7,835 bases of DNA. Origin: Bacteroidia bacterium (GTDB lineage Bacteria; Bacteroidota; Bacteroidia; Bacteroidales; Azobacteroidaceae). The stretch covers positions 1 through 7,835 of the forward strand of contig BNYG01000057.1 in the NCBI GenBank assembly GCA_026000155.1, given 5' to 3'. Below, piece by piece: positions 3,183 to 7,669 of the stretch (within the stretch, counting starts at the first letter, position 1; each line of letters opens with the position of its first letter). The translations under genes and the position numbers were made by a program. Under the pieces are notes generated by a model. The model did not search any database and had not been told where the DNA came from. It saw only the letters and a list, made by a program, of their open reading frames with translations.

Positions 3183-3190
3183 TCTCTTTT

Positions 3191-3309
3191 CTGTCATTGC
3201 GGGCTTGACCCGCAATCCCAAGATGTCCGTTAAACACCAATGATGCAAGGAGTTGAATAATAGTGATTAACGATTTTCAGAGGATTGCGGGTCAAGCCCG
3301 CAATGACAG
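3191..3309. repeat. 119-bp fold-back element with perfect 28-bp inverted arms
   Basis: The arms at 3191-3218 and 3282-3309 are exact reverse complements over 28 bases. Each arm is itself a hairpin: ATTGCGGG, five loop bases, then CCCGCAAT (3196-3216 and 3284-3304). Inside, CGTTAA (3228-3233) and TTAACG (3267-3272) are inverted too and lie nine bases from each arm, so the whole element can fold as one long hairpin with a 9 by 9 internal loop. This resembles a MITE or paired REP-like repeat. Arms containing TTGCGGGCTTGACCCGCAA occur in several bacterial genomes by my recollection. There is no U-tract, so I do not call it a terminator, and I see no clear target duplication. It sits 8 bp after the CotH stop and marks the break in the next gene. 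Confidence 0.85.
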
Positions 3310-4648
3310 AGAGAAGAGTGATGACAGTATTGGAAGTAATTTCGCCATTTCCATAACCGATGATAAAGATATTCAGCCGGATACGACTTCGACCATTTTA
3401 TCGCGGATTTTATTGACTTCGGAATTGCGGGGATATGTGGCCAATCCGGCATATTATTTTCAACCAGACAACCGGCAAGCGGAACAGGCATCCGATTTGT
3501 TGATGATGACTCATGGCTGGAACCGTTACGACATCCCGAAAGCCATGCGTGGCGATTATCAATACCTGACCATTCCCAACGAAGAATCACAGTCATTTTC
3601 GGGAATAGTGAAAGGCGGATTATTATCCAAACCTTATGCCAATTCCAAAGTGACGATTATTTCCAGCAATACCTTTTTCCATGATGTGGCGGAAACTGAT
3701 GAAAAGGGGCTGTTTACATTCAAGAATTTTGAGTTTCCCGACAGCACTTCCTATATTATTCAGGCTTTGAATAAAAAAGGGAAAGACATCGTGGAATTGT
3801 ATTTGGATGACATTACCTATCCGGCAGTATCCTCTACAAAAAATCAGTTAAGGAAACAAACGGAAGAAATAGTCAAACCGGAATTCAAAGAATATGTTGA
3901 AAAAGCGGATTTAAAATATACGAACGAAAACGGAATGCGGATGCGTACTTTGCCGGAATTGATTGTAGAAGGACGTTTTAAACCACATCAATCCCCTTTT
4001 TATACGATGCCTGATGATTTTATATCGGAGGATGAAATAAGACGTTCGTCCGATATGCGTAGTTTATTAAGGAAGAGTTCTGAGTTGAGAATGAACAACA
4101 ATGCACTAAGAGTACGTGCTACTAAAGCCATGCCTGTTACTGGCCCTCCAATGATTATGATTGATGGACAAAAAATGATCTATGGTGGAACTGATGATAT
4201 CAATGATGATGAAGTTTGGAATATTTTGGATCACTTGGACATTGAAGATATTGCACAAGTAGATATTATTAATAGTATGGCTAAAAGACTTGTTTACGGT
4301 ATGACGTATGGAAAAAATGGTGTTATTGAAATATATACCAAAAAAGGCTATTGGAATAAAGGTAAACCCAGGTTTAATACGCAACAAATCATACCTTTAG
4401 GTTATCAATTACCAATAGAATTTTATTCCCCGCAATACGATACGCCGGAAAATAGAAACAGTACAACACCCGATTTGCGAAGCACCATTTACTGGAAACC
4501 TGATGTTTTGGTGGATTCCGACGGGAAAGCTTCGGTAGATTTTTATACTGCCGACAGTCCATCGACCTATTCGGTTATTATCGAAGGAAGTACACCCGAA
4601 GGGAAATTGATTTACCAACGGGAAGAGGCGGCGGTAGTGGTGGAGTAA
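3263..4648 (+). pseudogene. 5'-truncated carboxypeptidase-regulatory/TonB-plug surface protein
   Basis: The longest open frame begins with GTG at 3263, but its first residues (QRIAGQARNDR) are translated from the right arm of the fold-back repeat. Family-like sequence starts near 3332 (GSNFAISITDDKDIQPDTT). No in-frame ATG occurs until 3503. Counting from 3263, residues 24-110 match the segment preceding the regulatory domain in Bacteroidetes MG2/TonB-plug proteins. Residues 111-190 look like a carboxypeptidase-regulatory beta-sandwich (SFSGIVKGGLLSKPYANSKV). Residues 295-363 are a TonB plug-like domain (PPMIMIDGQ, then GKNGVIEIYTKKGYW). Residues 378-461 are the usual conserved end (YWKPDVLVDSDGKASVDFYTAD). 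Full-length relatives from memory have about 400 more N-terminal residues including a signal peptide, so this is the C-terminal half only. It cannot be exported as it stands and is probably a relic. The C-terminus is intact. Confidence 0.75.
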
Positions 4649-4676
4649 GGAGAAAGTAACTTGTAAAAGATAGATT

Positions 4677-5324
4677 TCAGTTTTTCCATTTGTCGGGTAT
4701 TGTAGATGTTTTTGTCCCATTGGTAACGGTATCAGACATTATGCTATTGAAGAATTTTGATTTATTATATTCAAGTTTTACCACTTTTCCTTTGTTTTGT
4801 ACGATATTATTATTCAAATCACCGGAATGTCCTGTCGGTGGGAAATATACTTTGACCTTTTTATCAGGAAAATTTTGCTGGATAAATTCAAGAGGAGGCA
4901 CAAGGTCACTGTCTGCACTTACTAATATGACAACATCCGTTTTATTCAGAGCGCAGTCACCTATTATTTGAACTGAAATATTGACATCTGTTCTTTTTTC
5001 TTCGGGCTTGTCAATAGAGGCATTGCAATAAGGGCATGTAATCTGCTTGGCGAAATATTTCCCCCGAATAATCTCAAATTTGTCTTTATTAATAATTTTG
5101 TTTGCATTTAGCAAAGCTCCTTGACGACTGCTTTTACTGGAACTAAGTGGCGTAGCTGTAAAATATACTACTCTTTGAAGAATCTGATCCTGACCTAAAA
5201 ATTGTTCAAATAATTTAACAAAGTCAATCCAGTAAAATTTTTTCCAGTCGGAATCGATAATCTTTTTTCGCTTTAATCCGTAATAAAAATTAAATCCATC
5301 AATGTAAACAGTAACTCTTTTCAT
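4677..5324 (-). CDS. NYN-domain (LabA/DUF88-like) putative ribonuclease
   Basis: A 215-residue soluble protein with a PIN-like NYN fold. It begins MKRVTVYIDGFNFYYGLK, where D9 and N12 are the first acidic/polar active-site positions. EEKRTDVNISVQIIGDCALN (108-127) supplies D113, and LVSADSDLVPPLEF (134-147) supplies D138 and D140; together these form the expected metal-binding acidic cluster. A CPYC pair (97-100) precedes the EEK.TDVNI motif, as in several DUF88 proteins. The family is predicted to cut or process RNA in the cytoplasm; the substrate is unknown. No signal peptide or membrane segment is seen. The gene is markedly AT-rich (sampled lines near 23-37% GC) against about 45-50% in its neighbours, suggesting separate acquisition. 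It converges on the pseudogene at 4648 with only 28 bases between and no strong terminator there. Its own promoter and a terminator-containing leader lie directly upstream. Confidence 0.87.
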   Translation of the reverse strand: MKRVTVYIDGFNFYYGLKRKKIIDSDWKKFYWIDFVKLFEQFLGQDQILQRVVYFTATPLSSSKSSRQGALLNANKIINKDKFEIIRGKYFAKQITCPYCNASIDKPEEKRTDVNISVQIIGDCALNKTDVVILVSADSDLVPPLEFIQQNFPDKKVKVYFPPTGHSGDLNNNIVQNKGKVVKLEYNKSKFFNSIMSDTVTNGTKTSTIPDKWKN

Positions 5325-5330
5325 ATTGTT

Positions 5331-5363
5331 TTAGAATAAAAAAGCCGCTACTTTTGAGCGGCT
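5331..5363 (-). terminator. Intrinsic terminator within the NYN gene leader
   Basis: On the minus strand a 7-bp perfect stem AGCCGCT/AGCGGCT (5363-5357 with 5349-5343) encloses a 7-base loop and runs straight into TTTTTT then ATTC. This is a textbook intrinsic terminator in minus orientation. The plus strand has no U-tract after the stem. Its 3' end is only about 10-15 bases before the NYN start codon, so it would stop transcripts before the gene rather than after it. It may also terminate GH9 read-through. Confidence 0.85.
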
Positions 5364-5394
5364 AGCCCATACAAGAAAGTATGGGGATGCTTTA
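5336..5394 (-). ncRNA. Short structured leader RNA of about 60 nt upstream of the NYN gene
   Basis: A transcript from the promoter at 5430-5400 would start near 5394 and, if stopped at the terminator, end near 5336. It contains two perfect 7-bp hairpins in a row: CCCATAC/GTATGGG with a 6-base loop (5385-5379 pairing with 5372-5366), then the terminator stem. The first bases AAAG can pair with the terminal U-run, which would close the RNA into a three-way junction, or weaken the terminator as an antiterminator. There is no leader peptide of useful length. It could be an attenuator, a cis-regulatory element or a free small RNA. The structure is seen directly; its existence as a separate RNA is inferred, and I do not recognise an Rfam family. 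Confidence 0.5.
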
Positions 5395-5399
5395 CAATA

Positions 5400-5430
5400 C
5401 AAAGATAATCATTATTAATATAATACACAA
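5400..5430 (-). promoter_or_regulatory. Bacteroidetes-type promoter for the NYN leader and gene
   Basis: On the minus strand, TTG (5430-5428) is followed after exactly 20 bases by TATCTTTG (5407-5400). This matches the phylum's -33/-7 consensus TTG-N19-21-TAnnTTTG at every defined position. Transcription should start about five bases downstream, near 5394, giving a leader of roughly 70 nt before the NYN start codon. Confidence 0.75.
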
Positions 5431-5440
5431 TAATTTATTG

Positions 5441-5490
5441 AAATTTAGATTAATTCTAATTTGATAGTTGTATAGTTCCAAATAGTTGTA
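5441..5490. other. Intergenic stretch after GH9 with short AT-rich repeats
   Basis: Between the GH9 stop and the NYN promoter there is no gene. Two copies of ATAGTTGTA lie at 5464-5472 and 5482-5490, an 18-base offset, with a partial TATAGTT between them. An imperfect AT-rich inverted repeat (AAATTTAGA and TCTAATTT) lies at 5441-5462. It has no GC stem or U-tract and is at best a weak 3' structure for the GH9 mRNA. These may be chance in an AT-rich gap. Confidence 0.3.
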
Positions 5491-5494
5491 CGGC

Positions 5495-7669
5495 TTATTT
5501 CTGAATAATAATGCGTTGCAAATAGTTTTTATGAGCCGTTGTTATCCGGAGAAAATAAATAGCCGGCGGATAAGAAGATACATCCAATTGAACGAAATTG
5601 CCGTTCACCGGTTGTGTCTTCAATAACCGCATTTGTACATCAAACAAATCCAATTGGGAAATAGGTTCTTTCTGGAAACGAACATAAATGAGTCCTTTTG
5701 CCGGATTGGGATAAACTTCCGGTTGCTCCGGAACTACAGTATTGGTCAAGCTATTGTTGTTTTTTTTAGAAACAAATTTAGACAGCAAACGAATATAAGC
5801 CATTTGATAAGCTCCCATGGGTTCTGTGATTTCCCATGAATTGAGAGGCCAGCTTGTATTAAAATCTTTGTACATTTTGGCAGCCGGTTGATTGACAGGA
5901 ATTTCCTCCGATGTACATTGACTGTTATTGCCGGAAGAACCGCAATTGTTCGGACAACATCCGTCCCATTTATAATTTTCGTTGGGACCTCCGGACAGAT
6001 AACCCGGCGCCGGACCGTATGAAGTCGGGCTGACTTTATCCCATTTCACACTGTTGTGGTCATACCAGGTATGATAAATTTCGGTCAAACTTTTGGAGGC
6101 GCCATACGTATTCATGTTGGTAAGATAAACGAATCCCATGGGATTGACGCCGTGGATATAATGCAAATAATCTTCGGCTGCATCGGCATACAAACGGTTC
6201 TTATCCGGTTCCAGCGATTGATCGGAAAAGAAGTAAAACGTCATTCCGTAATCCGATTTGTATTTATTAGAACCCCAGTTGTAGTCTTTGATGAATGAAC
6301 GATAACCGTCTTTCCCGATTTTTCCGGCATAATTTTCCGGTTTATTAAAAGCGGTTTTTAAAGCGGAGATGATTCTGTTTTTTACAGTTCCGGAAATGCC
6401 GTCTAACGAAAGATAATAGAAACACAGAAAGTGGTCGGAACTCCAGTATTGCTGCATATCGTTGTTCCACGCAATCAATGGCAACACCGTATATCCGTTT
6501 TCGAAAACGGAAAGGTATTGTTTTTCTCCGGTCATTTCGTAGAGATACAAGGCTGCCGTCATACGAATGGCTTTCCGGTTGTAATCGCCCTCTACTTCCT
6601 GGTCGCCCGCACCCAAACCGGTCGAACCGTTGTCTGATGAATTATTGTGAAAAATCACATTGGGATTTTGTTCCGCCCAGTTCCACGCTTTCAAGGCAGC
6701 CGTTTGAAGTTGTCCGGCATATTCCGTTAAACCAATCTGTTTGAAAACTTTATATCCGATAGCGAATGCTTTGGCCGCCGATGTGGTGGACATGGTGCTT
6801 GCCGGTCCGTACAGGCTTTGTCCTTTGGCTGCCGAGGGAGGCGATGCGCTGCTCAATCCGACAATACTCAACACCGAACCGTCTTGTTCCTGCATTCTCA
6901 ACAACCAGTCCATTCCCCATTTGGCCTCGTCCAATAAATCGGGAATCCCGTTTCCGGATTCGGGAATATTGTAATCGTCCGTCCAGATTTCCGGATTTTC
7001 GAGATAAGAAAGCATCATCCATTCGATATAATTACAAGCCCAATTGGTATATTTATTGTAATCGCCGGCATCATACCAGCCGCCATGCAAATCGCGTTCG
7101 GTAGCCATATCGCTTTTTTTGTTGTACAAACGACAATTTTTGTCCTGAAGCGGCCCGACATGACTGGCGCCGTCCGCCCAGCCTTCTCCCGCAAAACGAG
7201 CCAACTTTTCGCAACCGGCCCGTTGGTAGAAAAACATCCGGACAGCGTGTTTCAGTACGTCATTATACACATTTTCACCAATGTGGAAAGGATAAGATTT
7301 GACATTATTGGCGACATCAAGAATGTAGTATTTTCCCGGAACAGAAACAGAGGAAAAGTCAAACCACCAGATTTGGTCGCCCGAATCCGTATCAGTCACC
7401 CCATTATTGTAGGCAACCGGAGCATCCTGAAAAACCGATTGATTGGTCGCAGCATTCACCACTTGATACACAGGACCCGGAGAGAAAGAGTTTCCATTGT
7501 CAAACCCTATTTTAGGATTTTTGATGACCGCCGTTTTGGTTGCTTGCGGTAGATAGCCGAACTGGTCTGTTAAAATGAAGGGCGAAGTTTCTTGTCCTGT
7601 TATTTCCGGAGAAATACAGAAAAGAAACAGCATCCATGTGACTCCTGCTATCGTTTTTATTTTTTTCAT
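5495..7669 (-). CDS. Secreted GH9 glycoside hydrolase (endoglucanase-like) with T9SS tail
   Basis: A 724-residue protein. The signal peptide MKKIKTIAGVTWMLFLF runs to about residue 25 (ITG then QETS). Residues 30-130 form the N-terminal Ig-like domain found before many GH9 catalytic modules (FILTDQFGYLPQATKTAVI). The catalytic (alpha/alpha)6 barrel spans about 135-633. GGWYDAGDYNKY holds D200 and D203, the paired aspartates that position and activate water. HGVNPMGFVYLT (506-517), YHTWYDHNS (532-540) and PGYLSGGPN (555-563) are substrate-cleft motifs. SWEITEPMGAYQMAYIRLLS carries the probable acid E613. A cysteine cluster (C571, C572, C576, C585) lies just before it. Residues 648-724 are a T9SS type A sorting domain (VYPNPAKGLIYVRF). 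GH9 enzymes cleave beta-1,4-glucan by inversion; cellulose, xyloglucan or mixed-linkage glucan are all possible here. The start is fixed by the basic N-terminus of the signal peptide. No carbohydrate-binding module is visible. Confidence 0.93.
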   Translation of the reverse strand: MKKIKTIAGVTWMLFLFCISPEITGQETSPFILTDQFGYLPQATKTAVIKNPKIGFDNGNSFSPGPVYQVVNAATNQSVFQDAPVAYNNGVTDTDSGDQIWWFDFSSVSVPGKYYILDVANNVKSYPFHIGENVYNDVLKHAVRMFFYQRAGCEKLARFAGEGWADGASHVGPLQDKNCRLYNKKSDMATERDLHGGWYDAGDYNKYTNWACNYIEWMMLSYLENPEIWTDDYNIPESGNGIPDLLDEAKWGMDWLLRMQEQDGSVLSIVGLSSASPPSAAKGQSLYGPASTMSTTSAAKAFAIGYKVFKQIGLTEYAGQLQTAALKAWNWAEQNPNVIFHNNSSDNGSTGLGAGDQEVEGDYNRKAIRMTAALYLYEMTGEKQYLSVFENGYTVLPLIAWNNDMQQYWSSDHFLCFYYLSLDGISGTVKNRIISALKTAFNKPENYAGKIGKDGYRSFIKDYNWGSNKYKSDYGMTFYFFSDQSLEPDKNRLYADAAEDYLHYIHGVNPMGFVYLTNMNTYGASKSLTEIYHTWYDHNSVKWDKVSPTSYGPAPGYLSGGPNENYKWDGCCPNNCGSSGNNSQCTSEEIPVNQPAAKMYKDFNTSWPLNSWEITEPMGAYQMAYIRLLSKFVSKKNNNSLTNTVVPEQPEVYPNPAKGLIYVRFQKEPISQLDLFDVQMRLLKTQPVNGNFVQLDVSSYPPAIYFLRITTAHKNYLQRIIIQK

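Follow-up and report, generated by a model that had tools for sequence, protein, structure and literature searches.

The window analysed here, i.e. the whole stretch of 7,835 nucleotides, carries on its minus strand the gene for a protein of the NYN family, and between this gene and a GH9 gene located upstream of it there is a short predicted RNA gene with signals of its own. The features of this region, in the direction in which they are read, are listed below.

5495-7669, minus strand: GH9 gene, upstream of the promoter-like pair and on the same strand.
5430-5428, minus strand: predicted -33 element TTG, identified from the sequence, with a 20-nt spacer to the -7 box.
5407-5400, minus strand: predicted Bacteroidota -7 element TATCTTTG (TAnnTTTG), identified from sequence and conservation.
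5394-5338, minus strand: predicted small RNA, about 57 nt long, whose two ends (5' near 5394, 3' near 5338) are likewise predicted.
5390-5383, minus strand: C-rich 5' stretch GCATCCCC, reaching into hairpin 1, identified from alignments A1 and A2.
5385-5379 with 5372-5366, minus strand: hairpin 1 (CCCATAC/GTATGGG), 7 bp with a 6-nt loop, identified by folding and covariation.
5363-5357 with 5349-5343, minus strand: hairpin 2 (AGCCGCT/AGCGGCT), 7 bp, the stem of an intrinsic terminator, identified by folding, a terminator scan and covariation.
5342-5338, minus strand: U-run of the terminator, 13 nt ahead of the NYN start codon.
4677-5324, minus strand, ATG at 5324: NYN gene, 215 aa, identified by Pfam (NYN) and PADLOC (HEC-09).

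The arrangement described in the first-pass annotation, viz. a promoter-like pair, two hairpins of 7 bp and a terminator whose U-run ends 10-15 bases before the NYN start codon, is borne out in the sequence, the distance being 13 nt. Hairpin 2 is the single terminator detected within positions 4600-5600 (shuffled sequences: mean 0.5, sd 0.7), and the fold of 5400-5322 has an energy of -25.0 kcal/mol versus a shuffled mean of -12.3 (sd 2.65; z -4.78), with none of 200 dinucleotide shuffles being as good. The RNA was further said to lack the usual tandem repeats, and no direct repeats of at least 10 nt, of the kind that characterise type III antitoxin RNAs, were found in either 5325-5410 or 5100-5500. 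For the -7 box, whose sequence TAnnTTTG we take to be the Bacteroidota consensus, the number of matches in the window (9) is not above that expected by chance (7.9), and its credibility comes instead from its conservation across loci, the full consensus being present at 25 of the 36 Bacteroidota-type loci of the same-strand class and at 8 of the 17 divergent ones, compared with about 2% in shuffles. A TTG at a comparable distance is listed in 24 of the 36 same-strand loci, a figure given without a shuffled control. Rfam, which the annotation had proposed to search, gave no match at the gathering score in the window, and in 20 related loci the only such match was ColE1 RNAI, located outside the two-hairpin RNA; at a permissive threshold, 13 matches were obtained for 5300-5480, all far under the gathering scores and judged to be due to chance. 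A second DNA match to the upstream region, on another contig of the same genome (C19), spans only query positions 30-70, i.e. the promoter part without the hairpins. Elsewhere in the window, positions 3183-3317 contain a 55-nt inverted repeat, 80% complementary and with its arms 25 nt apart, which has 93 matches in the window's own genome (both strands counted), as in a high-copy MITE/REP-like palindrome. An ORF of 461 aa (3263-4648) without a Pfam match has its GTG start inside this palindrome, and from its sequence it looks like a gene with its 5' end missing.

A Pfam scan of the 215-aa protein identified NYN only, the Abi_2 domain being absent. The protein matches the PADLOC profile PDLC04163 for HEC-09 (E 1.8e-49, residues 1-199), as do all 54 of 54 aligned NYN sequences, across which the residues D9, N12, E109, D113, D138 and D140 are invariant. 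HEC denotes an Hma-embedded candidate in PADLOC, and the HEC-09 model covers the protein alone, without an RNA. Among the folds listed, the best matches of the window protein are NYN folds, and by this modelling it is a PIN-like NYN fold with a conserved acidic active site; its identity to the NYN domain of MARF1 and to VPA0982 (PDB 5yaa, 6fdl, 2qip) is about 10%. MARF1 differs in being a large animal protein, and the accessible text of the literature searched on MARF1 and VPA0982 does not mention a linked RNA gene. Based on its sequence, the NYN protein is a predicted RNA-cutting enzyme and a candidate anti-phage protein. HEC-09 is listed in the accessible part of one report among the systems correlated with phage susceptibility (PMC12447246). 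An RNA partner is not mentioned in the accessible text of the publications that were found to name HEC-09, and in the literature searched, which covers the field in part, no earlier report links an RNA to HEC-09 or to any NYN gene of bacteria.

Relatives of the NYN gene were gathered by protein similarity, and in them the promoter, hairpins and terminator follow in the same order just ahead of the start codon. When upstream regions were scored by a rule that looks for two neighbouring hairpins followed by a T-run within 250 nt on either strand, a score of at least 45 was reached by 45 of 55 NYN upstream regions, but by only 1 of the 89 further ORFs taken from these loci (L004-L080), these control ORFs being mechanically defined stretches of at least 150 aa rather than annotated genes. 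The 55 upstream regions come from Bacteroidota genomes and two phage-type contigs, and they number 49 once near-copies are removed. Five of the low scorers (L004, L005, L007, L010 and L046) nonetheless carry the RNA in alignments A1 or A2, the hairpin scorer having missed or under-scored them. Virus-like contigs, which were used for no model, provide a separate set, where 91 candidates led to 80 kept and 74 scored, of which 53 loci were left after short upstream regions and near-copies were dropped. At the threshold of 45, this layout was detected in 29 of these 53 loci versus 0 of 170 other ORFs (here at least 130 aa, again mechanically defined), and at a threshold of 40 in 38 of 53 versus 5 of 170, with 15 of the 53 loci scoring below 40. 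The layout, judged by score or by eye, also precedes NYN in a planctomycete (L011), a bdellovibrionote (L012), a cyanobacterium (L013), Thermus (L087), Actinomycetota (L086, L088) and plasmids of Pseudomonadota (L083, L089), while a clear two-hairpin RNA was not found in the plasmid loci L091 and L093. Loci L068-L073 were inspected by eye rather than scored by the rule; here the RNA is present in L069 and L071, L072 has one terminator hairpin, and no clear two-hairpin RNA is seen in L068, L070 and L073. Loci L075-L077 contain only C-terminal parts of NYN. The 16 NYN hits with E of 1.2e-81 or lower in one protein-similarity search all have the RNA, as do the 9 hits with E below 1e-40 in another, which include three near-identical copies in one genome (G027); however, as many of these loci trained the models, these are counts and not blind tests. 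The distance between the NYN start and the RNA ranges from 10 to 61 nt, and for 42 same-strand loci the median distance from the end of the aligned stretch of RNA to the start codon is 14.5 nt. In genome G027, the RNA and NYN occur three times (L026, L028 and L080, on contigs C43, C180 and C233) in a near-identical stretch of about 1.28 kb, with more repeats in the flanks, and the sequences suggest a recent duplication or a mobile unit.

The conservation of the hairpins upstream of related NYN genes, on which the first-pass annotation had staked its proposal, is accompanied by covariation. In alignment A1, which contains 19 same-strand RNAs, 95.1% of the pair cells hold standard pairs, and all 14 of the 14 pairs (7 of 7 in hairpin 1 and 7 of 7 in hairpin 2) show changes on both sides, compared with 7.6 expected in shuffles. 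The covariation score is 0.706 versus 0.211 in shuffles, and none of 500 shuffles reaches the observed value; if the pairing partners are slid by one to three columns, then pairing falls to 34-52%. In alignment A2, consisting of 19 divergent RNAs, 12 of 15 pairs are changed on both sides, and again the covariation score was equalled by none of 500 shuffles. The divergent RNAs consist, in this order, of a 5' part resembling CAUCnCC, hairpin 1, a linker resembling UCCGA, hairpin 2 and a U-run, and the motif CAUCnCC, frequent among them, is similar to the GCATCCCC stretch of the window. On the strands proposed to encode the RNA, G-U pairs are more numerous than A-C mismatches (9:4 and 16:7), which is a weak indication of strand. 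In 20 RNAs having either a NYN remnant or no NYN, 90.6% of the cells are paired versus the 95.1% noted above, i.e. there is slight erosion. Covariance models were made from the two classes, model R1 being trained only on same-strand RNAs and R2 only on divergent RNAs; R1 matches the window at 5335-5399 on the minus strand with 67.1 bits and E 2.4e-11, the window being among its training sequences.

In the second group of loci, from Bacteroidota, Thermus and Microbacterium, the T-run after the hairpins is found only on the strand opposite to NYN. In this group, which includes a sister clade of that of the window, the RNA is predicted from its sequence to point away from NYN and to have a promoter-like box and a terminator of its own, and no full-consensus promoter for NYN was found in the divergent class either in the spacer (0 of 17) or upstream (0 of 17). 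When each model was applied to the loci of both kinds (R1 on 44 loci and R2 on 46), R1 recovered the RNA in three of the 16 divergent loci given, namely L048 (E 8.2e-6), L022 (3.5e-5) and, weakly, L087 (0.046), and R2 recovered RNAs of the same-strand kind in three of the 46 sources given, namely L086 (E 1.8e-5), L019 (2.2e-4) and L009 (0.0027). Every match up to an E of 1 in these scans was at the predicted site beside NYN, and two later scans on 53 loci each gave a few weak matches out of place (L223, L168 at position 4800, L174 and L178; E 0.027-0.84). These results indicate that the RNAs of both orientations are homologous, with a cross-detection that is partial. In additional genomes of the divergent class, R2 matches L153, L154 and L156 with E no higher than 5.3e-14, and L155 has only a weak R1 match (0.26); NYN contains a stop in L154 and is in two pieces in L156. 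In a Streptomyces plasmid (L149:2796-2860), R2 weakly matches (E 0.011) the strand that does not encode NYN, and this is possibly another divergent copy. In a tree of 55 NYN sequences (alignment A3 minus 15 P-rows plus 16 locus proteins, seven trimmed to the matched part), the divergent form makes up one supported set of 11 (99/88) adjoining the clade of the window, and the divergent L088 pairs with the same-strand L086 (100/99). On this sequence tree, there are at least two changes of orientation.

NYN relatives are also common on mobile elements, with 190 plasmid records obtained in a search with the NYN protein of the window and 322 with a protein of the divergent class, and three phage records. 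Small plasmids with NYN relatives are of 3461, 3555 and 5359 bp and have two, four and five annotated genes. Upstream of NYN in the 5359-bp plasmid (L085:1970-2050), two 28-nt direct repeats, 86% alike and 53 nt apart, precede a strong terminator hairpin; from this sequence, a relative of the RNA that does have repeats may exist in enterobacterial plasmids. In a Paenarthrobacter plasmid (L150), a NYN relative is located two genes past the gene for an ApeA-like HEPN protein.

Whole-genome scans with the models, which covered Bacteroidota genomes, show that the RNA also occurs where NYN is damaged or missing. The R2 model gave 43 matches at E of 2.9e-8 or lower over 395 genomes, of which 16 have an intact NYN beside them, 12 a broken NYN or a remnant (three of these being short matches only, E 0.017-0.093), 14 have none and 1 could not be judged due to a contig end. 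Ten weaker hits (E 2.8e-4 to 0.0072) were left out of this count, and the two of them that were inspected both lack NYN. Over 97 genomes, R1 gave 14 matches at E of 6.8e-7 or lower, with 9 intact, 4 truncated and 1 absent NYN, weak hits (E 4.6e-4 to 0.1) being excluded. The genome of the window has three copies of the RNA, where NYN is intact (C57), truncated near residue 100 (C8) or cut after about 13 codons (C96), and several remnants similarly retain the RNA and the first 13-100 codons of NYN followed by other sequence. However, as NYN is a target about 10 times longer, plain decay will also leave copies of the RNA behind, and the orphan RNAs are therefore ambiguous.

For the 14 loci without NYN, the first ORF in the direction of NYN was listed. 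In nine of them, another gene, mostly a defence gene, begins at a distance of -12 to 63 nt, which is the spacing of NYN itself; in the remaining five, the next ORF is at least 149 nt away or absent. The genes in this position are HsdR at 23 nt in L124 and L126 (an ORF of L127 shares the start peptide), PDC-S32/AbiJ_NTD4 at 37-40 nt in L129 and L132, DUF3800 at 63 nt in L120 and 38 nt in L136, a Schlafen-type AlbA_2 ORF in L133 and, in L134, an ORF that weakly matches DrmA. In L122 and L138, a NYN stump is followed by an Abi_2 gene, which PADLOC calls AbiD for L122. Further neighbours are HsdM (L121), HipA (L119 and L120), PDC-M41B (L131), PDC-S54 (L136), HigB (L116) and a nucleotidyltransferase (L115); genes of an ordinary kind are a methyltransferase (L128), a peptidase (L130), a RibD-type protein (L116) and a semialdehyde dehydrogenase (L131), and the ORFs of L127, one of L116 and L118 have no match. 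The ORFs scanned were picked by place and by eye, with no background rate for comparison. From these sequences, defence genes seem either to replace one another at the spot adjacent to the RNA or to share the RNA (L120, L124, L126, L129, L132 and L136). That DUF3800 genes carry the RNA in general was tested and found no support, the starting locus alone having it (1 of 7): near relatives of the L120 protein in six other genomes, no R2 RNA was found up to an E of 10, and due to this the pairing in L120 looks like a replacement. With a permissive threshold, the RNAs of L120 and L136 had 6 and 5 sub-threshold Rfam matches, DUF3800-I being among them.

Type III toxin-antitoxin systems are found on plasmids and phages. 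In their layout, as given in the accessible text of PMC12373285, the RNA gene lies directly upstream of the nuclease gene with a terminator between the two. The window and its same-strand relatives share this order with ToxIN, CptIN and TenpIN, whereas the divergent class does not, and the module further differs from these systems in that its protein is recognised by Pfam and by the best fold matches listed as NYN and not as ToxN/AbiQ, the RNA is without tandem repeats and it occurs in either orientation. In view of the lack of repeats and the apparently different toxin family, the module of the window is not placed within type III. A closer parallel in arrangement is AbiF/RCd22 from a Clostridioides difficile prophage, where, according to the accessible text of the same report, promoter, RNA, terminator and protein gene follow each other, no second promoter is predicted, the protein gene is reached by read-through and the RNA neutralises AbiF by binding (PMC12373285). 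The order of promoter, structured RNA, intrinsic terminator and protein gene and the setting of phage and defence are alike in both; however, AbiF has an Abi_2 domain where the window protein has NYN, RCd22 has two repeated motifs and the window RNA none, and the accessible text does not mention a divergent arrangement for AbiF/RCd22.

Sequence and its comparison across loci support an RNA gene with a covarying structure, promoter-like and terminator signals, linkage to HEC-09 and two orientations. On this basis, the RNA may well be the antitoxin half of a two-part RNA-NYN module, likely working in the manner of type III toxin-antitoxin systems or of AbiF/RCd22, although we put this forward as a tentative reading. 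If so, then the two-hairpin RNA would bind and restrain the adjacent NYN endoribonuclease; the promoter would yield many short RNAs ending at hairpin 2, and occasional read-through past this hairpin would produce a little NYN mRNA, so that the RNA would be in excess. In the divergent form, RNA and NYN would be on separate transcripts and the RNA would act in trans. Infection by a phage or loss of a plasmid could cut the supply of the RNA, or the RNA could be titrated or cleaved, and the NYN protein thus freed would cut RNA, halting growth or the phage. This reading is favoured by the linkage of the RNA to NYN, its covariation, the homology across orientations, the two or more changes of orientation on the tree, the promoter box, the nuclease fold with its invariant acidic residues, the layout shared with AbiF/RCd22 and the defence setting, which comprises the HEC-09 match, the defence genes beside orphan RNAs, the plasmids of 3.4-5.4 kb and the 91 virus-like contigs. 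It is marked down because other genes stand in the place of NYN, which a NYN-specific antitoxin does not explain, and it is weakened by the fact that an activating RNA would leave similar traces, by the less clear distant relatives, by the lack of tandem repeats, by the ambiguity and slight erosion of the orphan RNAs, by the absence of a full-consensus NYN promoter in the 17 divergent loci and by the partial detection across orientations.

If the RNA were instead a cofactor that NYN cannot do without, serving to activate, scaffold or aim it, then its presence beside all of the strong intact NYN genes would be accounted for, and the common unpaired C-rich 5' stretch beside hairpin 1 could contact a target. 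However, NYN is a remnant or absent at 26 of the 43 strong RNAs of the divergent type, no variable guide-like segment was noticed in the RNAs, and a terminator ahead of the start codon fits an excess of RNA over protein, which make this role unlikely. Also unlikely, and marginally more so, is that the RNA is a portable element for control or sensing which works for any defence gene adjoining it, NYN being merely its commonest neighbour. The nine loci with HsdR, PDC-S32, DUF3800, AlbA_2 or DrmA-like genes in the place of NYN are in its favour. Rfam contains short RNAs filed by their neighbour gene, such as those named for DUF3800 genes (e.g. RF02969), two divergent-type RNAs here adjoin genes of this kind, and DUF3800-I gives a sub-threshold match to one of them, the RNA of L120 (16 bits with a cut-off of 44.2, E 3.3). 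Neither the window nor the 20 related loci match these families at the gathering score. However, the independent events are few, the HsdR and PDC-S32 cases each looking like copies of one event, the six relatives of the L120 protein lack the R2 RNA, and several of the loci retain NYN remnants, for which replacement of NYN is the simpler story. A small regulator of other messages, with NYN as the nuclease that processes or uses it, is improbable: the promoter and terminator signals that the RNA has to itself in either orientation would suit it and the single-stranded C-rich stretch could pair with ribosome-binding sites, but strong sequence variation under a covarying structure is unusual for a conserved pairing seed, and the surroundings are those of plasmids, virus-like contigs and defence.

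The first-pass annotation had offered, besides a separate small RNA in a type III layout, attenuation or a leader cut by the NYN protein itself. The separate small RNA has gained from the conservation of the promoter, hairpins and terminator and from their covariation, whereas the cis-acting leader, in which attenuation or self-cleavage would set the level of NYN and the RNA would have no separate function, has lost ground and is now slightly less probable still than the regulator. The short distance between RNA and start codon in the same-strand class, as a rule too small for a second promoter, speaks for such a leader. However, the divergent RNA is outside the NYN message in the sense orientation, yet it is homologous, covarying and has its own promoter box, the orientation has changed at least twice, and RNAs exist without NYN; a leader confined to the NYN message is thus unable to explain the two orientations. 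We consider it very improbable that the hairpins act as DNA, i.e. as an attachment or recombination site for the swapping of defence genes. The remnants that break off within NYN and the defence genes in its place agree with such a site, but the strand of the RNA is the one that retains promoter and terminator, G-U pairs exceed A-C mismatches there (a weak difference), and the breakpoints vary from locus to locus. Hardly tenable is the reading, which the annotation had itself named as a danger to its proposal, that hairpin 2 does no more than terminate the GH9 gene upstream on the same strand, as a promoter box lies between the two and relatives keep the hairpins before NYN where the upstream sequence and neighbour differ. 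It is the homologous divergent RNA with its own promoter and terminator signals that favours a separate RNA over both the leader and the GH9 terminator.

A broader proposal, which we regard as doubtful, is that HEC-09 is not a single-gene defence, and that a portable, repeat-free two-hairpin RNA encoded on either strand checks NYN across phyla and can be taken over by DUF3800, type I restriction or PDC-S32 effectors that replace NYN. The candidate defence protein HEC-09, modelled alone until now, gains a likely RNA partner from these results, and tests on the NYN protein alone or on the RNA alone may mislead. The covariance models R1 and R2 allow this RNA to be annotated where Rfam finds nothing. 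If the antitoxin reading is correct, then a supposed single-gene defence would become a two-part RNA-protein system whose RNA is able to flip its orientation and yet remain linked, and the NYN (PIN-like) nucleases, which range from bacteria to animals, would enter the small set of proteins that are held by an RNA antitoxin.
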